35,649 bases of DNA. Source: Chloroflexota bacterium. Lineage in GTDB: Bacteria > Chloroflexota > Dehalococcoidia > Lucifugimonadales > UBA3495. Below the pieces are notes generated by a model. The model saw only the letters and a list, made by a program, of their open reading frames with translations, did no database searches and was not told where the DNA came from. Location: assembly GCA_002721995.1 (NCBI GenBank), contig PBMF01000008.1, positions 1 to 35,649 on the forward strand, read 5' to 3'. This document shows, one piece after another, positions 10,409-34,882 of this stretch. A program made the translations under genes and the position numbers. Within the stretch, counting starts at the first letter, position 1. Each line of letters opens with the position of its first letter.

Positions 10409-11221
10409 TTAGGAGGCGTTTGCAGCGACCAACTCGAAGGCCCGCTTCTCGATGCGGGGCAGCTCCTGCTGGACCAGCCCTTCATCCACGGCGTTGGCGA
10501 TGGAGGGGTAACCGGCCCTGGTAATCATGTTGCGCAGGTTACCGGCCTTGAACTGGTCAAGGGTCCAGCGCAGGGTCTCGCCGGAGGTGGTCACGTCCCA
10601 GTAGATGCGGACGTCTTCGTTCCGGGGACCGTAGTGGAAGTGGGGCGCGACCTGGAAGCAGTCGAAGGCCAAGAGCTCGACCTCTTCACCGGCCACGTCG
10701 GACAGGACATGGATGGCCATGCCTTCGTCATTGATCTGGGGGAGCCTGCGGTATTCAAGACCGAAGCGGATGTTGCCGACCTCAATCTTGTCTCCTTCCA
10801 GCATGCTCTCCATCTTGTGATGGACGGTGCGGCGCTCTTCCCGGGCCATCTTGCGGGCAGTGGCTTCCAGTTCGTCCAGCTTGCCCTTAGCGACCTTCTT
10901 GGACTCCAGGGAGTCAGCCAGGTCGTCGTACCCGGCGCGGCGGACCATGGGGGCCAGGTTGTTGCGGATGTTCTTGATGGTCCATCCCAGCGGGCTGCCG
11001 GTGCTGGTCTTGTCCATGAACAAGCGGATGTTGTGGTTCTCGGGACCATAGTGATAGTGGGGGGCCTGATCAAAGCAGTCGAACCGAAGAATCTCGGTGT
11101 CCTTGCCGTCGATCTCGGAATAGACCTGAACACATAGGCCCTGGTCGTCCATTATCTCTTTCCGGTAGCTCATGGCGAATTCCACCGAACCGGCATCGAT
11201 TGTCGTTCCACCCTTTTCCAT
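10409..11221 (-). CDS. Unrecognised protein with two tandem copies of one domain
   Basis: The 270-residue protein is a clear internal duplication. Residues about 11-105 and 148-245 share the same pattern: (V/I)-x-F-x-x-x-YR, an acidic-to-Gly (L/M)-x-(V/I)-x-V strand, then FDCF-x-x-APH-x-HYGP (47-60 and 186-199), then (I/V)R-(L/I), G-x-x-L-x-WT, NLR/NLA-x-M-(V/I)-x-RAGY and an (L/I)A motif. A charged helical linker with several Arg/Lys/Glu runs between them. The repeated His-x-His preceded by Asp-Cys could bind a metal, but this is a guess. No signal peptide or membrane segment is seen. The start has TAGGAGG nearby and a strong promoter upstream. Function unknown to me. Confidence 0.85.
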   Translation of the reverse strand: MEKGGTTIDAGSVEFAMSYRKEIMDDQGLCVQVYSEIDGKDTEILRFDCFDQAPHYHYGPENHNIRLFMDKTSTGSPLGWTIKNIRNNLAPMVRRAGYDDLADSLESKKVAKGKLDELEATARKMAREERRTVHHKMESMLEGDKIEVGNIRFGLEYRRLPQINDEGMAIHVLSDVAGEEVELLAFDCFQVAPHFHYGPRNEDVRIYWDVTTSGETLRWTLDQFKAGNLRNMITRAGYPSIANAVDEGLVQQELPRIEKRAFELVAANAS

Positions 11222-15130: not shown

Positions 15131-15274
15131 GCACATGCCATGTGTGGTGCAGGCGCGTTGCGCCGGTATGGGCAAGCTGATAGCATTGCGGAAATCAACC
15201 TGCCTCAGGCTCATACTCCCATTTTATCCCCTTGCCCAGTGGGAGTCGGGCCGGGCGTATGGAGAGAAGATACT

Positions 15275-16684
15275 TTGGCCGGAATCTCGGGTTTTGGGGC
15301 CTACGTGCCCCGCTACCGGTTGGGCGCCGCGACCGACGGCTGGGACTCGCCCGGTGAACGCGCCATCGCCAATTTCGACGAGGACAGCGTCTCCATGGCG
15401 GTCGCCGCCGGCATCGACTGCCTGAAGGGGCACGACCGCCAGGAGATTGACGGCGTGCTCTTCGCCACCACCACACCGCCCTACGCTGAGAAGCAGTGCG
15501 CCTCCATCATCGCCACCGCCCTGGACCTGCGGCGGGACATCACCACCGCTGACATCACGGATGTACTTCGGGCCGGCACCACGGCCCTAAAGTCCGCTCT
15601 CGACTCGGTCACCGCCGGTTCGGCCAAGAAGCTACTGGTCATAGCCAGCGACAACCGCCAGGGCGCTCCCAAGGGTGACGCGGAGAAGAACTCGGGCGAC
15701 GGCGCGACGGCATTCATCGTATCCAACGAGGGCGTCATCGCCGAACAGGCCGGGTCCTACACCATCAGCGAGAACATGATGGACACCTGGCGGAGCGCCG
15801 GCGACCAATTCCTCCGCACATGGGAGGACCGGTTCGCCATCGAGGAAGGGCTGGAGCGCATCCTGGGCGAGGCAGTATCGGGCTATCTGGAGAAAGAGGG
15901 CGCTTCAGTAAAGGACGTTGCCAAGCTGGCCATCTACGCCCCCGACGGCCGGCGTCACGCCCAATTGGCGCGGCAGCTCGGCTTCCAGCCGGAACAGGTA
16001 CAGGAGCCGTTGTTCGGTCGCCTGGGCAACACCGGCGCCGCCTTCCCCCTCATGCTGTTGGCCGGTGCGCTGGAGGACGGAACACCCGGCCAGTTGGTCC
16101 TGACCGTGTCCTACGGCGACGGCAGCGACGTCTTGGGATTCCGCACGACCGAGGCCATCGGTGGTAAGACGCCGGCCCTGGGAGTCTCCGGGTACCTGGG
16201 CTCGGGCCAGGTTCTGGACAGCTATGAGACCTACGCCAAATGGCGGGACATCTGGGTTACCGACGCCTCTCGGCGTCCCCAGGCCCAGTCACCGTCGGTC
16301 ACCGCCATGTGGCGGGAGAGCGAGCAGAACATCCGCTTCCACGGTGCGGTCTGCAATAACTGCGGCTACGTGCAGTACCCGCCCCAGAGAGTCTGCGTTG
16401 AGTGCCAGACCAGGGACGCCTCATCTCCGGTGCGGCTCAGTGACCGACCAGGCACGGTATTCACCTACTCCCTGGACTACCTGGCGGGCACGGTGGACAC
16501 TCCGCTGGCCATCGCCGTGGTGGACTTTGAATCGGGCGGGCGGGTGCTGTGCATGATGACCGACCGGGAAACCTCTGAGCTAGAGGTTGGCCTTCCAGTC
16601 GAAATGAGTTTTCGCAAGCTGAGGGTGGTGAACGGCATTCATAACTACTATTGGAAGGCGGTGCCGCGCCGTCATGCGGGCTAA
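15275..16684 (+). CDS. HMG-CoA-synthase-like thiolase-fold protein fused to a zinc-ribbon/OB-fold (DUF35) domain
   Basis: The protein has 469 residues. The first ~300 follow archaeal-type HMG-CoA synthase: GISGFGAYVPRYR, ASDNRQGAPKGDAEKNSGDGA, and RLGNTGAAFPLMLLAGAL. By eye alignment, the three catalytic residues are replaced: Cys becomes Leu98 (VLRAGTTA where CKAGTA is expected), Glu becomes Thr66, His becomes Tyr221 (IYAPDG for HQPNG). The last ~120 residues form a DUF35 domain with a C-x2-C...C-x2-C zinc ribbon (Cys360, 363, 374, 377) and an OB fold. TTG at 15275 is chosen because GGAGAG lies upstream and the protein begins at the conserved first strand; the frame is open to 15140. A thiolase follows after 45 bases. 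In archaea, thiolase, HMG-CoA synthase and DUF35 form one channelling complex. Confidence 0.88.
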   Translation: MAGISGFGAYVPRYRLGAATDGWDSPGERAIANFDEDSVSMAVAAGIDCLKGHDRQEIDGVLFATTTPPYAEKQCASIIATALDLRRDITTADITDVLRAGTTALKSALDSVTAGSAKKLLVIASDNRQGAPKGDAEKNSGDGATAFIVSNEGVIAEQAGSYTISENMMDTWRSAGDQFLRTWEDRFAIEEGLERILGEAVSGYLEKEGASVKDVAKLAIYAPDGRRHAQLARQLGFQPEQVQEPLFGRLGNTGAAFPLMLLAGALEDGTPGQLVLTVSYGDGSDVLGFRTTEAIGGKTPALGVSGYLGSGQVLDSYETYAKWRDIWVTDASRRPQAQSPSVTAMWRESEQNIRFHGAVCNNCGYVQYPPQRVCVECQTRDASSPVRLSDRPGTVFTYSLDYLAGTVDTPLAIAVVDFESGGRVLCMMTDRETSELEVGLPVEMSFRKLRVVNGIHNYYWKAVPRRHAG

Positions 16685-16729
16685 ACAAGGACGTATACTG
16701 TCAAGAGGCGTTGGCATTAGGAGGACCCC

Positions 16730-17902
16730 ATGAGCGGGATCAAAGACCGAGTGGCCGTAATCGGCATGGGCTGCAGCAAGTTCGGAGAACGCTGGGATTC
16801 CAGCGCCGTGGACCTTATCGTCGAGGCCGCCTACGAGGCCTATGAAGACGCAGGGCTGGAGGGCAAGGATATCCAGGCCGCCTGGCTGGGGACCGCCGCG
16901 TCCTTCCGCACCGGGCAACCCCTGGCCGCAGCCCTTAAGCTGGATTACATACCCATCACCAGGGTTGAGAACGCCTGCGCCACCGGGACCGACGCCTTCC
17001 GCAACGCCTGCTACGCCGTGGCCGCCGGCATCTATGACATCGTGCTGGCCGTGGGCGTGGAAAAACTCAAGGACTCGGGGTTCTCGGGACTGGCCGTCCC
17101 CGAGGCCGTGGGCGCGGACGTTACGCCCCAGGTGCCGCCGCCCTCCCAATTCGCCCTGGCCGCCACCCGTTATTTCCACCAGTACGACATCCCCTACGAA
17201 GAGGGGAAGATGACCCTGGCCCAGATCGCGGCCAAGAACCACCACAACGGCACCATGAGCCCCAAGGCCCACTTCCAGCGGGAGGTAAACCCAGAGCAGG
17301 TGGCCAACGCCCCCATGGTCGCCTGGCCCCTGGGCCTCTTCGACTGCTGCGGCGTATCGGACGGCGCGGCCGCCGCGATAATCACCACCCCCGAGATCGC
17401 CAAGACCTTCCGGGACGACTACATACTGGTCAAGGGATTGGGCCTGTCTGTGGGCGCCTTCGGCGTCATGCGGAACGACTGGGACTTCACCCACTTCCCC
17501 GAGACTGTCCGGGCCAGCCAGTCGGCCTATCAGGAAGCTGGGGTGGACGACCCGCGCCAGGAGATCGACCTGGCCATGGTCCACGACTGTTTCACCATCA
17601 CCGAGCTGATCATCTACGAGGACCTGGGCTTCAGCCCCCGGGGCCAAGCCAGCCAGGACGTGGCGGCGGGGACGTTCAGCCTGGAAGGAGAACTTCCGGT
17701 GAACACCGACGGCGGCCTGAAGTGCTTCGGCCATCCCATCGGGGCCTCCGGCATCCGGATGATCTATGAGGTCTACAAGCAGCTCCAAGGCAAGGCCGGT
17801 GACCGGCAGCTGAAGGACCCGTCTTTGGGACTGACCCACAACCTAGGCGGCCGCCCCGGCTCCTTCACCTGCTCCGTGGCCCTGTTCGGCACCCGCGACT
17901 AA
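16730..17902 (+). CDS. Thiolase-family protein (SCP2/acetyl-CoA acetyltransferase type)
   Basis: A 390-residue thiolase. The nucleophilic cysteine is present (Cys83 in ENACATG), as are the His-containing segments VHDCFT (about 285), LKCFGHPIGASG (His335, Cys332) and HNLGG. It can therefore catalyse Claisen condensation or thiolysis of acyl-CoAs. The ATG is preceded by TAGGAGG. It lies 45 bases after the HMG-CoA-synthase-like/DUF35 fusion and is probably in the same operon and complex. The overall pattern (LPVNTDGGLKCFGHP) is that of the SCP2-thiolase branch used for acetoacetyl-CoA or sterol/branched acyl-CoA work; the substrate is unknown. Confidence 0.9.
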   Translation: MSGIKDRVAVIGMGCSKFGERWDSSAVDLIVEAAYEAYEDAGLEGKDIQAAWLGTAASFRTGQPLAAALKLDYIPITRVENACATGTDAFRNACYAVAAGIYDIVLAVGVEKLKDSGFSGLAVPEAVGADVTPQVPPPSQFALAATRYFHQYDIPYEEGKMTLAQIAAKNHHNGTMSPKAHFQREVNPEQVANAPMVAWPLGLFDCCGVSDGAAAAIITTPEIAKTFRDDYILVKGLGLSVGAFGVMRNDWDFTHFPETVRASQSAYQEAGVDDPRQEIDLAMVHDCFTITELIIYEDLGFSPRGQASQDVAAGTFSLEGELPVNTDGGLKCFGHPIGASGIRMIYEVYKQLQGKAGDRQLKDPSLGLTHNLGGRPGSFTCSVALFGTRD

Positions 17903-18083: not shown

Positions 18084-19322
18084 ATGGAGCAAGTCCGGGC
18101 CGGCACCCAGGAACGCCCGGTCTGGTCTTCCCAGACGATCTTCATCATCGCGACCATCGCCGGTGTGGTCGGTCTGGGGAATATCTGGCGGTTCCCGTAC
18201 ATGGTGGGGGAGAACGGCGGCGGGACCTTCATCCTGGCCTACGCCATCTGCATCCTTGGCATCGGCTTTCCGATCATGGTGTTGGAAACCAGCGGGGGGA
18301 ACCTGACCAGCCGAGGACCGGTGGGTACCTTCCGGTGTATCAGCGGGCTTTGGGGCCCGTGGGCCGGCTGGCTACTGGTCGCCTTATCCGTCGCAATCAT
18401 GAGTTACTACTTTGTGGTGACCGACTGGACCCTTGGCTACACCGTTGACGCCGTCCGAGGAAGCCTCGGGACATTTGAGAGTTTCACATCCGGTTTTGCC
18501 AGTCTGTGGTATTTCCTGGCGGTGGCCGCACTGGCCCTGGCCGTGATGTGGAACGGCATCAGCTACATAGAAAAGATCAGCCGCGCCATGCTGCCGCTGC
18601 TGGTGGTCGGGGTCGTTGGTCTGGCGGTCTACTCCCAGTCTTTGGACAGGGCAGGCCGGGCCAATGACTTCTATTTCAGCTTCGACCAAGACCTATTCTG
18701 GCAACTCAGCACATGACGGATGGCCGCAGGACAGGCCTTCTATTCCCTGAGCATCGGCCTCGCCCTTTTGATCACCTACGGCAGTTATACCCCCAAGGGG
18801 ATCAATATCATTTCCTCGTCCATCGCCGTGGTCGCCACCAACTCCTTCGTTTCCATAATGGCGGGGCTCATGGTGTTCCCCATCGTGTTCACCTTCGGCA
18901 TAGCTCCCGACACCGGCAGTCAGCTCTCCTTCACTGCCTTCCCCGCGGTTTTCGGAGAGCTTACCGGTGGGCGGGCCATCGGCATCGTCTTTTTCGCCCT
19001 GTTGTTCATGGCCGCGTTCACCTCCTGCACCGGAGGGCTGGCTGTGGTACTGGCGCCGATCAGGGATGAGTTCCAGCTGCCTAGATGGGCCGCCGCCACC
19101 GTCAGCGTCGCCATCGTGACGTTGATCGGCGTGCCATCAGCGCTGAGCTTTACCTCTGTCTCCCTCACGGTCGGGGATAGGCCATTCTTGGACATGATGG
19201 ACCAGGTCGCCGGGTCCGGAGTGGTGCTGGCCGCGGGCGTTGTGGGGGCGGCGTTGATAGCCTGGCTGATACCCAATGCAGAACTACTGGCGGCGATGAA
19301 CTCGCGGGTATCTCAGCCTTGA
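18084..19322 (+). pseudogene. Sodium:neurotransmitter symporter family transporter, interrupted by one in-frame TGA
   Basis: The reading frame encodes a LeuT-fold (SNF family) transporter. The TM1 signature is VGLGNIWRFPYMVGENGGGTF, and several more helices follow. TM6 reads MAAGQAFYSLSIGLALLITYGSY. A TGA at 18714-18716 stops the frame, which then continues without any shift to 19322. Placed against LeuT (VWIAAVGQIFF), the TGA falls where the conserved Trp of VW stands, so one TGG-to-TGA change explains it. The total would be about 412 residues, shorter than the ~450-510 usual. TGA is the normal stop of other genes here, so recoding is unlikely. Without read-through the gene is broken; a sequencing error is also possible. 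Confidence 0.85.
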
Positions 19323-30767: not shown

Positions 30768-31250
30768 CTACTCTGACCGCACAAACAGGGGCAGGACCAC
30801 GTTGGGATCATCAATGGTGGGCATGAACGTGACCTGCACCGGCATGTCGACGTGGATGTCCTCGGGTCCGATGTTCAGTATGTTGCTACAAACGCGAAGC
30901 CCCTCCTGCTCCTCCAACTCGATGAGGGAGATGTTGTAGGGCACCTGGTCCTTTTCCCGAATAGCGGGATGAACAGGATTTCGGACTATGACGAACGAGT
31001 AGACGACCCCTCTCCCGCTGACCTTGCTCCATGCGTATTCCAGTGAATGGCAGGAGGGGCACATGGGGGTCGGCAGGTGCCTGAACCTGTTGCACTCAGA
31101 GCATTGCTGGATTCGCAGTTCGCGTTTCTGTGAGCCCTCCCAGAATCCCCGTTCGTAATCTGGGAGGCGCTCCAAGTCCGGAAGGGGAATCCCTTCCAGG
31201 GGTCCGGCCATCGGACGGGACTTGATGTTCTGATCCTTCTTTTGCGTCAT
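30768..31250 (-). CDS. Zinc-ribbon OB-fold protein (DUF35/ChsH2-like)
   Basis: A 160-residue DUF35 protein. The N-terminal zinc ribbon has C-x2-C (Cys50, 53) and C-x2-C (Cys64, 67). An OB fold follows (GRGVVYSFVIVRNPVHPA, then YNISLIELEEQEGLRVCSNI). DUF35 proteins partner with thiolase-fold proteins; in steroid side-chain degradation the ChsH2 DUF35 domain pairs with the aldolase Ltp2. The start is four bases after the thiolase-like gene, so it is the last gene of a three-gene operon. Bases 30569-30767 between it and the XRE gene hold nothing else I can support. Confidence 0.9.
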   Translation of the reverse strand: MTQKKDQNIKSRPMAGPLEGIPLPDLERLPDYERGFWEGSQKRELRIQQCSECNRFRHLPTPMCPSCHSLEYAWSKVSGRGVVYSFVIVRNPVHPAIREKDQVPYNISLIELEEQEGLRVCSNILNIGPEDIHVDMPVQVTFMPTIDDPNVVLPLFVRSE

Positions 31251-31254
31251 GAAT

Positions 31255-32439
31255 CTATCCCCTCCGAATGATTACGGCGGCACTCAGTTGGGCAACGCTG
31301 CTACATGAAAGCACTCTGTTGATCGTCTTGTTGGGCGGCTGAGCAGTGGAGTCGCCCCGGATCAGCCGCACTGCTTCCTGGGTATGGGTGAGCCCATGGA
31401 TATAGGCCTCGGAGTGGTTGCCGCCATGGGTATTGACGGGCAAAGTCCCATCGAACCTGATGTTTTTACCGCCTTCCACAAAATCCTTACCCTCACCGAA
31501 GGGTACGAAGCCATAGGCCTCCAGATTGAGCAGACAGAAGGGGGTGAAGTGGTCATAGAACATCATGGCGTCTATGTCAGAGGGACCAAGCCTTGATCTG
31601 GCCCAAAGGTCTCGAGCTGTATTCGTTGATTCGGCCACTGAAATGTCTGGCCGATAGATAACGCCCTCGTTCTGAGGGCCGGATCCTTGTGCCGCTGCTT
31701 CCACCAGAGTCAGGGTATCGGCGTGCCGGAGGTCTTTGGCCCGGTCCGGCGATGTCATTACTATGGCGGCCGCGCCGTCGTTCTCCTGACAGATGTCCAG
31801 CAGATGCAGCGGGTCGACGACCATTCGAGAGTTCTGGTGGTCACTCAGGGTGATTGGGTCTCTGCGAAGGGCGCGGGGATTTCGAGAGGCATGCTCGCGC
31901 AACGTCACAGCCACCCACCCAAAATGCTCGCTCGTAGCCCCGTACATGTGCATGTAGCGACGAACAAACATGCTGAACTGGTGTGCGGGAGCCATGCTGC
32001 CAAAGGGCGCGGCAAAAGCCTGCTGACCGCCCGCGATTCGCTGAGGATTCCTGGCCTGCCCCAGCCTGAACTGGGAGCGGAGATTGGCGGCCCGGAAGCA
32101 GACGACATAATTGCAATAGCCAGCGGAGACCGCGGCCGCGGCGTGCCCCACCACCGCGTTGCCGGCGCCTCCGCCGTAAGAGACTGACTCCCAATGGCGA
32201 AGGTTCTCGATGCCCAGCGCTTGCACCACCATCGTTTCCTGGTTTGTGTCCATCTCGTAACGAATCAGGCCGTCGACCTGGTGGGGAGAGATTCCTGCGT
32301 CGTCGCAGGCTGCCTTGATTGCTTCACACGCGAGTTGGAGCTCGCTGCGCCCGGAATCGAATGAAAACTCGGTCTCGCCAATGCCAACGATGGCCGCCTT
32401 GTCCTTGATCTCGTTGATGTCCGCAGAGCTAGTCGTCAC
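31255..32439 (-). CDS. Thiolase-fold protein lacking the catalytic cysteine (Ltp2-like)
   Basis: A 394-residue lipid-transfer/thiolase-like protein. The N-terminal DKAAIVGIGETEFSFDSGRS and AGISPHQVDGLI are typical of the SCP2-thiolase branch. Where thiolases have Cys-Ala-(S/T)-Gly, this has SYGGGAGNAV at about 87-96, with no cysteine. At the C-terminus LPVNTHGGNHSEAYIHGLTH replaces the LKCFGHP segment. These replacements are those of Ltp2-type proteins, which act as retro-aldolases with a DUF35 partner rather than as thiolases. GTG start with AGGGAG upstream. The operon order is double CoA transferase, this gene, DUF35. An aldol cleavage role is inferred. Confidence 0.85.
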   Translation of the reverse strand: MTTSSADINEIKDKAAIVGIGETEFSFDSGRSELQLACEAIKAACDDAGISPHQVDGLIRYEMDTNQETMVVQALGIENLRHWESVSYGGGAGNAVVGHAAAAVSAGYCNYVVCFRAANLRSQFRLGQARNPQRIAGGQQAFAAPFGSMAPAHQFSMFVRRYMHMYGATSEHFGWVAVTLREHASRNPRALRRDPITLSDHQNSRMVVDPLHLLDICQENDGAAAIVMTSPDRAKDLRHADTLTLVEAAAQGSGPQNEGVIYRPDISVAESTNTARDLWARSRLGPSDIDAMMFYDHFTPFCLLNLEAYGFVPFGEGKDFVEGGKNIRFDGTLPVNTHGGNHSEAYIHGLTHTQEAVRLIRGDSTAQPPNKTINRVLSCSSVAQLSAAVIIRRG

Positions 32440-32452
32440 TGCTCGCCACTCC

Positions 32453-34882
32453 CTAAGCTTCTTCCCAGTCTATGATGCCCCGTTGTTTGTAGTCGTGAAT
32501 CTGCTCATCGGTATACCCCAATTCCCTCAACACCGGTCTCGTGTGTTCGCCTTTTAGGGGCGCGGTGCCCGCCTTGCCATCGGTTTCCGAGAATGAGACC
32601 ACTGGGGTGTATCGCCAGAACCCGCCATGGCGGGTGGCCTCCACCTGTTTCAGCAAGCCGTTCTCGCGCACGTGTTGGTCTTCGTTATAGAAATGGTACA
32701 TCCCCCGGTCCTCGGCCTTGACGCAGGCTACGTCGGATTCAGTCAGCAGCTTCTCCCAGTCCAGGGGCTCCCTGGAGGTGAACACTTGGGTTAACTCTTC
32801 AATGAGGGCGTCGTCGTGTTCCTCCCGCGCCATCCGAGTTGCGAACCGTGGATCCACCAGCAGGTCCTGCCGATCAATGGTTCGGCATAGGGCCTGCCAT
32901 TCCTCCTCGAAGGGGCAGGCGAGAAAGACCCAGCCGTTCTTTGCGCGGTACAACCGGTACAGAGCGTCAAGACCGTACCCGTCCTGGTCCGGGAGGCGTC
33001 GCGGAGGCTTTCCCTGGTGCCAGAAGAAGTCATTGGCATTTGCGTAGGCGTTGGCCGCAATCATGGTCGATTCAACGTATTGGGCCTTCCCGGTGCGCTC
33101 CCGGGCGTAGAGCCCAAGTATGAGTCCAACGGAGTTGACCATCGCGGTGGTGTGATCGGCAGTGCCGTCATTGGCCCGCTTGAGCTTCGTGGACACAGCG
33201 ACGATGTCATCGATTGTCATCGGCTGCTCCCGCGGCGGAAAGCCTTCGCGCCCCATCTGGGCCACGCCGCCGCCAGAAACGGCTCCGGCGATGGGAGCCA
33301 TGGACGGCCTGTGGGAGTATGGGCCGGTGGAGCCGTACCCTCCAGCGTAGAGGTACACCAGGTTTGGATTTATCTTGGTCAGTTGCTCGTAGCCGATGCC
33401 GGTACGCTCGGGAGCTCCGGGTCTCATGCTGTGAAGCAGCATGTCGGCCTTGGCTGCCAGTTTGTGCACTATCTCCTGTGCTTCGGGAGTCTTCAAGTTC
33501 AGGCAGACTCCCTCGGACCCTGCCATGGTCCGCTGCACGGATAGGCCTCCAATGCCTTGCCTGCCCCAATCACCGTCCGGGGCTTCGATGCGAATGATTC
33601 GGGCCCCCAACTCCGCCACCAACGCACAACCCAACGGCCCGTTGATCACAGTCCCCAAGTCCAACAGAGTGATGCCCTCCAGAGCAGGCTTGGGCATGGG
33701 TAAGAAGACGTCCTTGGCGGACGGTTTACCGCCGGATTTGAGTCGTTCTAGGACCTGTTCGGTATGCTGGCCGGGCTTTGGAGCGGGACCCATGGCCCTA
33801 CCGGGAGTCTCAGCCATGATTACCATGGGGCCAAGTTGACGCATCTCCCCCACCCCGGGATGATGCATGCTGCTCGAGTGGCCATTGTGCAACATTTGGG
33901 GATGGTCTAGCGCGGCTTCAGAAGTCATGTAGGGTTCTGCCGCTACATCGCTCGATTCCCCCGCGAACATGTCCATCCATTCTTCCAGGGTCTTTTCCTG
34001 GACCTTCTCCAGCATCATCTTTTCCAGGGATGCCACATGTTCTTCAGCCACGAATGGAGCTGTCTTGAACCGTGGGTCATCGTAAATGAAACCCAACTCC
34101 AGGGAATGAATCATGGACCGAAATAGCCGCTCCACAATGTTTCCCAATTGAATCCAACGCCCATCCTTTGTGCGCGCAGGCAGGTAACCGGTGGGGTTGG
34201 GACGGCCAATGCCTACCCTTGGGTCCGGCGGATAGGTCTCCGGGGCCTTGGCAATCATCTGGCCCTGAATCCAAGATATGTGGTCGTAGGTGGTGATGGT
34301 CTGTAGCATGCTGGTTTCAACCATCTGCCCCCGCCCGGTCTTCTCACGCAGGTACAAGGCGGTGGTGATACCCCGAATCAGGGCCGTCGCCGCCGAGTGG
34401 CAAACACCCTGTACCACCACATAGTTGGGTCCTTCCCTCGGGTTTTGCCCCGCAAACATCATCATCCTGCCGGTCTTGGCGGCGACCACGGCGTCATAAC
34501 CCTTGTAGTTGGAGTAGGGGCCCTCCGCGCCAAAGCCCGTCAGCGACGCGTAAACCAACTCTGGATGATCTGCGCTCAGACTGGCGTAATCGATACCCAG
34601 CCGGCGAGTCACTCCTGGTCGAAAGCTCTCAATCACGACATCAGAGATGCGCGCCAGCTTTTGGGCATTCTCACGCCCATGGGGGGTCTTCAGATCGAGA
34701 ATGACGCTCTTTTTGCCCCGGTTCCACTGGACTGCGCCGGGCGATTCCCTAAATTTGTCACCAGACGGGGAATCTACTTTGATCACTTCGGCCCCAAAGT
34801 CGGCCATCACCATGGTGGCAATACCTCCGGGCATACCTCTGGTGAAGTCGAGGACCGTGATCCCGTCGAAGACCTGCGCCAT
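32453..34882 (-). CDS. Fused double CaiB/BaiF family III CoA transferase
   Basis: An 809-residue protein with two complete family III CoA-transferase domains in tandem (about 1-380 and 400-800). Each begins with a TVLDF or TLLDLG strand and continues ADFGAEVIKVDSP or ELGARIIRIEAPDGD, then NRGKKSVILDLKTP or GVCLNLKTPEA, and FGAEGPYSN or YGSTGPYS. The position of the catalytic Asp (GQ-x-VD-x-S) is Glu in both: Glu189 (GQMVETSM) and Glu604 (QYVESTM). Family III enzymes move CoA between acids. ATG with GGGGGAG upstream. First gene of the operon with the Ltp2-like and DUF35 genes (gaps 13 and 4 bases), so probably activates the acid that the pair then cleaves. Confidence 0.9.
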   Translation of the reverse strand: MAQVFDGITVLDFTRGMPGGIATMVMADFGAEVIKVDSPSGDKFRESPGAVQWNRGKKSVILDLKTPHGRENAQKLARISDVVIESFRPGVTRRLGIDYASLSADHPELVYASLTGFGAEGPYSNYKGYDAVVAAKTGRMMMFAGQNPREGPNYVVVQGVCHSAATALIRGITTALYLREKTGRGQMVETSMLQTITTYDHISWIQGQMIAKAPETYPPDPRVGIGRPNPTGYLPARTKDGRWIQLGNIVERLFRSMIHSLELGFIYDDPRFKTAPFVAEEHVASLEKMMLEKVQEKTLEEWMDMFAGESSDVAAEPYMTSEAALDHPQMLHNGHSSSMHHPGVGEMRQLGPMVIMAETPGRAMGPAPKPGQHTEQVLERLKSGGKPSAKDVFLPMPKPALEGITLLDLGTVINGPLGCALVAELGARIIRIEAPDGDWGRQGIGGLSVQRTMAGSEGVCLNLKTPEAQEIVHKLAAKADMLLHSMRPGAPERTGIGYEQLTKINPNLVYLYAGGYGSTGPYSHRPSMAPIAGAVSGGGVAQMGREGFPPREQPMTIDDIVAVSTKLKRANDGTADHTTAMVNSVGLILGLYARERTGKAQYVESTMIAANAYANANDFFWHQGKPPRRLPDQDGYGLDALYRLYRAKNGWVFLACPFEEEWQALCRTIDRQDLLVDPRFATRMAREEHDDALIEELTQVFTSREPLDWEKLLTESDVACVKAEDRGMYHFYNEDQHVRENGLLKQVEATRHGGFWRYTPVVSFSETDGKAGTAPLKGEHTRPVLRELGYTDEQIHDYKQRGIIDWEEA

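Follow-up and report, generated by a model that had tools for sequence, protein, structure and literature searches.

The window, by which we mean the whole 35,649-nucleotide stretch of Chloroflexota DNA that was analyzed, contains two adjacent plus-strand genes that together encode three modules. The first gene (15275-16684) encodes a fused protein of 469 aa, in which a pseudo-HMG-CoA-synthase domain comprising residues 1 to about 326 is followed by a DUF35 part. Residues 1-326 score 196 bits against the archaeal HMG-CoA synthase model NF003274, which is below the cut-off of 244. The DUF35 part, consisting of a zinc ribbon and an OB fold, spans residues ∼343 to 464, with a profile match to the ChsH2/DUF35 zinc ribbon and OB fold over residues 354-447. 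Its zinc-ribbon residues Cys360, Cys363, Cys374, and Cys377 (16352-16405, plus strand) are invariant in 53 homologs. A longer version of the fused ORF could begin at an in-frame ATG at 15140; the TTG at 15275 was taken as the start because homologs begin at the residue encoded there. After a gap of 45 bases, the second gene (16730-17902) encodes an SCP2/PhlC-type thiolase of 390 aa that belongs to the PRK06157 family based on the NF004810/PRK06157 profile (583 bits, passing the cut-off of 403). The nearest named relatives, found in a Chloroflexi bin, share 84% identity with the fused protein and 94% identity with the thiolase, which suggests that the window comes from Chloroflexota, probably Dehalococcoidia. 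Promoter and terminator scans returned nothing above chance.

Upstream of the pair, close relatives share the gene order, apparently through simple inheritance of synteny. No functional link was drawn from the SDR and luciferase-like monooxygenase genes located there, because the shared order continues into unrelated genes, among them purH and minC. A protein with two DUF7700 stretches is encoded at 10409-11221 on the minus strand, and its gene order with the upstream region is conserved in relatives. Downstream on the plus strand, a sodium:neurotransmitter symporter gene (18084-19322) contains an in-frame TGA near 18714, and its two halves match separate portions of one Pfam family. Farther along, a second DUF35/thiolase-fold pair is found at 30768-32439 on the minus strand and is adjoined by a double CaiB-type CoA-transferase (32453-34882, minus strand). 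The thiolase-like protein of this second pair contains Y295DHF and lacks the nucleophilic Cys, and the pair therefore looks like an Ltp2-ChsH2-type retro-aldolase.

The single-chain predicted structure of the fused protein (pLDDT 91.9, pTM 0.93) adopts the synthase fold of the thiolase superfamily and superposes on the archaeal synthase 6esq_I with a Z score of 46.5 and an rmsd of 1.6 Å over 324 residues. Alignment to 6esq_I places Thr66 (codon 15470-15472), Leu98 (15566-15568), and Tyr221 (15935-15937), all on the plus strand, at the positions of the catalytic Glu, the nucleophilic Cys, and the His of the synthase, respectively. Since the model is confident and superposes closely, it is unlikely that these positions are misaligned. 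The original prediction, made from the sequence alone, had described a synthase/DUF35 fusion followed by a thiolase, with these same three replacements, and had concluded that the synthase fold is kept while its known chemistry is impossible. The NF003274, ChsH2/DUF35, and NF004810 profiles confirm the arrangement, the alignment and superposition confirm the replacements, and the conclusion holds across the homologs described below.

The three positions were compared in 94 fused homologs, a set that includes the window and was drawn from eight plasmids, named genomes, and same-phylum genomes. Cys is absent from position 98 in all 94 proteins, 69 of which have Leu, and Glu is likewise absent from position 66 (0/94), where Thr66 is 91% conserved. 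At position 221, Tyr is found in 55/94 and His is kept in 3/94. Within the fused clade the old Cys site varies (Leu, Thr, Val, Gln), as does the old His site (Tyr, Pro, Ala, Ser). No alignment placed a Cys at the active site, and none of the 94 fused homologs has the classical triad in the same gene context. Loss of the triad is a family-wide trait of the fused clade and not chance, and HMG-CoA synthase chemistry cannot run in the fused protein. As a control, 400 genomes of the same phylum were searched with the synthase model, which revealed a second, distinct group of unfused proteins scoring mostly at about 490 to 560 bits. All 31 unfused synthases examined from this phylum keep Glu, Cys, and His, and most of these true synthases are located in an operon with a separate thiolase gene and, if the flank extends far enough, a separate DUF35 gene. 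Since the triad is lost in all 94 fused proteins and kept in all 31 unfused synthases, fusion and triad loss coincide without exception in this one-phylum sample.

The catalytic residues of the partner thiolase are intact. The thiolase nucleophile Cys83 (16976-16978, plus strand), which had been noted in the window copy, is kept in 69/69 aligned partner thiolases. In the same set, Asp286, Cys287, and Phe288 of the His285-Asp-Cys-Phe288 (HDCF) motif (17582-17593, plus strand) and Gly334 and Pro336 of the Gly334-His335-Pro336 (GHP) motif (17729-17737, plus strand) are present in 69/69, and His285 and His335 are each at least 98% conserved; both motifs are invariant in a 38-sequence alignment. 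SCP2 thiolases are characterized by HDCF, and the related aldolases carry YDHF or YDCY and lack the nucleophilic Cys (PMC12329534). A retro-aldolase of the Ltp2/Sal type was ruled out for the window thiolase by the presence of Cys83 and HDCF. The single-chain model of the thiolase (pLDDT 90.7) is closest in fold to BbsB (7pyt, Z 56.1, 1.8 Å) and to the archaeal acetoacetyl-CoA thiolase (6esq_A, Z 56.0). Pairing with the fused protein is near-obligate. In 71 of the 77 loci with room for it, the thiolase gene immediately follows the fused gene on the same strand, and the remaining six loci still contain a copy, separated in three of them by one inserted gene.

One way to read this combination is as a CoA-independent or otherwise atypical acyltransferase resembling PhlACB, in which Cys83 would transfer acyl groups from one non-CoA acceptor to another, as in the C-acylation of phenols. 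The three modules are those of PhlACB, the synthase-like subunit lacks Cys and Glu as PhlA does, and PhlA-type structures rank second among the structural matches of the fused protein. However, PhlC aligns as YDLL at the site where the aligned partner thiolases have HDCF, the window thiolase matches BbsB and the archaeal thiolase (Z 56) better than it matches PhlC (Z 51), and the gene contexts are those of beta-oxidation, not of polyketides. The fused clade also stands apart in phylogeny: a tree of 49 sequences resolves fused proteins, PhlA-type proteins, and true synthases into three separate branches, all with strong support. We therefore consider an acyltransferase of this kind very improbable. 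When the tree is rooted on the true synthases, the PhlA-type and fused proteins are sisters, a placement that depends on an assumed root, in a tree with an unsettled bootstrap and one very long PhlA-type row (9vbo_A). Under this assumed root, catalysis could have been lost just once.

A non-catalytic synthase part is expected to be freer to change than its partner thiolase, and the identities at each locus were compared on this premise. The locus pairs are related and not independent, so the following percentages are descriptive and do not constitute a test. Among fused loci, the two thiolases are more similar to each other than the two synthase parts in 95% of 2346 pairs, versus only 3% of 231 pairs for the operons of true synthases. 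At 45 to 55% thiolase identity, the synthase part averages 45% identity in fused loci versus 64% in true synthases. Constraint is reversed: the thiolase is the better conserved partner in fused pairs and the synthase is the better conserved partner in true synthase operons, and constraint on the pseudo-synthase is relaxed. The fused clade has lost 43 of the 111 sites that are invariant in true synthases; those kept include Asp-Glu-Asp at 35-37, several glycines, Arg173, and Arg186. Conversely, in the fused clade Arg128, Asp142, and Glu184 each reach at least 97% conservation, which they do not in true synthases or PhlA. The pattern fits a retained scaffold with a lost active site; the clade-specific residues may have acquired a new role.

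Because Arg128, Asp142, and Glu184 are nearly invariant in the fused clade only, the synthase part may do more than hold the complex. It could have an activity of its own that relies on other residues, such as decarboxylation or the binding and hand-over of the second substrate, with the pair running two steps. Conservation of Thr66 points in the same direction, as does the Gln found at the Cys position in 4/94 fused homologs; decarboxylating ketosynthases carry Gln at this position. On the other hand, the synthase part changes more quickly than the thiolase does, the variable Cys and His positions do not resemble a remodeled active site, and Asp142 may be structural, as it sits within a GDGA motif that we take to resemble the one in FabH. 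We accordingly give little credence to a new activity in this domain. A related proposal, which we regard as unlikely, is that the old synthase pocket was rebuilt for a second function, in which it would bind or modify a bulky substrate with the help of the clade-specific Arg128 and Glu184 and hand it to the thiolase. The pair would then be a two-site enzyme, with paralogs in Chloroflexota tuned to different substrates.

The gene contexts of relatives point to acyl-CoA degradation. In a Desulfobacteraceae bin (locus L091), the fused gene and the thiolase are found with acyl-CoA dehydrogenases, an SDR, an enoyl-CoA hydratase, a 3-hydroxyacyl-CoA dehydrogenase, and an acyl-CoA ligase, which together look like a full operon for beta-oxidation. 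In Variovorax, Sphingomonas, Novosphingobium, Azoarcus, and Rhodococcus, plasmid-borne copies of the pair adjoin genes for SDR, MaoC hydratase, acyl-CoA dehydrogenase, CoA-transferase, or ring-hydroxylating dioxygenase. Across 80 named-genome loci, the commonest recognized neighbors besides the thiolase are SDR, acyl-CoA dehydrogenase, and enoyl-CoA hydratase, as judged from raw counts with no background rate. In the window itself no beta-oxidation genes are next to the pair, and the pathway link comes from relatives. The fused clade was found in Chloroflexota, Thermodesulfobacteriota, Acidobacteriota, Spirochaetota, Latescibacterota, Binatota, Bacillota, Actinomycetota, and Pseudomonadota, as well as in one archaeal bin. 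Several genomes of the class (e.g., G109, G218, and G094) contain at least six or seven copies of the fused/thiolase module, and these copy numbers are lower bounds as six candidates were scored per genome. No mention of this paralog expansion came up in the searched passages of the SAR202 papers.

The host genome was also surveyed for isoprenoid pathways. The assembly is 2.57 Mb and 88% complete, so the absences that follow are soft. IspG of the MEP pathway is present, and neither HMG-CoA reductase nor a true HMG-CoA synthase gave a match in the 88% complete genome; a mevalonate role for the pair was ruled out on these grounds. IspH was also not found, probably due to the incomplete assembly. 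These results bear on the possibility that the pair works in the biosynthetic (Claisen) direction, forming acetoacetyl-CoA or a longer 3-ketoacyl-CoA while CoA is bound by the fused protein in the manner of the archaeal complex. For both chains, the archaeal acetoacetyl-CoA thiolase/synthase complex indeed ranks first or joint first among the structural matches. However, the true synthase and reductase that would use acetoacetyl-CoA were not detected and a MEP enzyme is present, and the many paralogs per genome in the class, together with the degradative neighbors, suit catabolism better. Synthesis in the Claisen direction thus seems to us quite improbable.

Taken together, we think it probable that the products of the two genes make up a single DUF35-dependent 3-ketoacyl-CoA thiolase, similar in type to BbsAB and the archaeal acetoacetyl-CoA thiolase, that functions in the degradative beta-oxidation of some acyl-CoA, with all of the chemistry in the thiolase and with the fused subunit serving as a pseudoenzyme scaffold and cavity wall. 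The degradative neighbors in relatives, the presence of IspG, and the lack of a match to HMG-CoA reductase or a true synthase make this the simplest reading. In such an enzyme, Cys83 would attack the 3-ketoacyl-CoA to form an acyl-enzyme, the HDCF and GHP residues would provide the acid/base and oxyanion groups as in SCP2 thiolases, and CoA would accept the remaining acyl chain. The synthase-fold domain would dimerize and, with the DUF35 domain, would hold the thiolase dimers. In known relatives, DUF35 acts as a bridge between subunits and lies at the edge of the CoA site. By analogy with PhlA and PhlB in PhlACB, the pseudo-synthase and DUF35 may form one wall of the CoA/substrate cavity, and we propose that the fused protein contacts the thiolase and shares its CoA site. 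We infer the complex itself, the direction of the reaction, the substrate, and the lining of the cavity by the pseudo-synthase from these comparisons.

The original prediction had offered two functions for the pair, a different acyl-CoA reaction or a scaffold role for the synthase part. The latter is, in our judgment, the better reading. The former is only partly needed: since the thiolase keeps the full SCP2/archaeal residue set and the pair belongs to beta-oxidation operons in relatives, the simplest account is ordinary thiolysis of a 3-ketoacyl-CoA. The case is also not singular, as triad loss is a trait of a widespread clade and has a published precedent in PhlA (PMC6392133).

The fused clade is nonetheless a separate and widespread lineage that appears to be uncharacterized. 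A search of the open full-text literature, with subscription papers mostly outside its reach, found no biochemical or experimental study of it. Within this large clade, loss of catalysis in a subunit with the HMG-CoA-synthase fold is the rule and not a quirk of one antibiotic pathway. Databases name the fused proteins 'OB-fold domain-containing', '3-oxoacyl-ACP synthase III', or 'hydroxymethylglutaryl-CoA synthase', the last of which is misleading and could prompt a false inference of a mevalonate pathway. The clade also provides a directly testable system for the role of a dead synthase beside a live thiolase.

Four known systems resemble the pair. The archaeal thiolase/HMG-CoA synthase/DUF35 complex (6esq) has the same three modules and a thiolase with the Cys, HDCF, and GH motifs; its synthase, however, is active with Glu, Cys, and His, its DUF35 is unfused, and it serves the mevalonate pathway, whereas the triad is absent in the window. 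The benzoylsuccinyl-CoA thiolase BbsAB (PDB 7PXP, 7PYT) combines DUF35 with an SCP2-like thiolase, and BbsB is the joint best match of the window thiolase, but BbsAB has no synthase-like domain and BbsB has HDAF in place of HDCF. In the steroid aldolases Ltp2-ChsH2 and Sal-Shy (PDB 6OK1, 9MYR) a thiolase fold is also bound to DUF35; unlike the window thiolase with its Cys83 and HDCF, these aldolases carry YDHF or YDCY and are devoid of a nucleophilic Cys (PMC12329534).

The closest precedent for the dead synthase is PhlACB (PpATase, PDB 5M3K; also CsATase, 9SKH, and MucABC, 9VBO), in which a synthase-fold subunit without Cys and Glu is combined with DUF35 and a thiolase-fold subunit that has the sole nucleophilic Cys of the system. 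In PhlA the synthase Cys is replaced by Gly115 and the Glu by Cys83. The corresponding subunits and the thiolase subunit line one large cavity, where the substrate is contacted by residues of PhlC alone, and PhlA and PhlB are considered necessary only for proper folding of the complex (PMC6392133). A locus in the same phylum (L172; G309 contig 5, 160500-166000) encodes an unfused synthase-like protein with Gly, Asp, and Pro at the triad positions; it adjoins a thiolase and DUF35 and groups with PhlA, and the thiolase matches PhlC best. From these similarities, L172 is possibly a PhlACB-type acyltransferase in Chloroflexota. The window pair differs from PhlACB in that synthase and DUF35 are fused, where PhlACB is encoded by three separate genes, and in that PhlACB transfers acyl groups to phenols independently of CoA, has no HDCF in PhlC, carries Gly, Cys, and Gln at the lost sites, and occupies a separate clade of the tree. 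What is new relative to PhlA is the fusion, the residues of its own at the lost sites, the CoA-type thiolase partner, and the catabolic surroundings.
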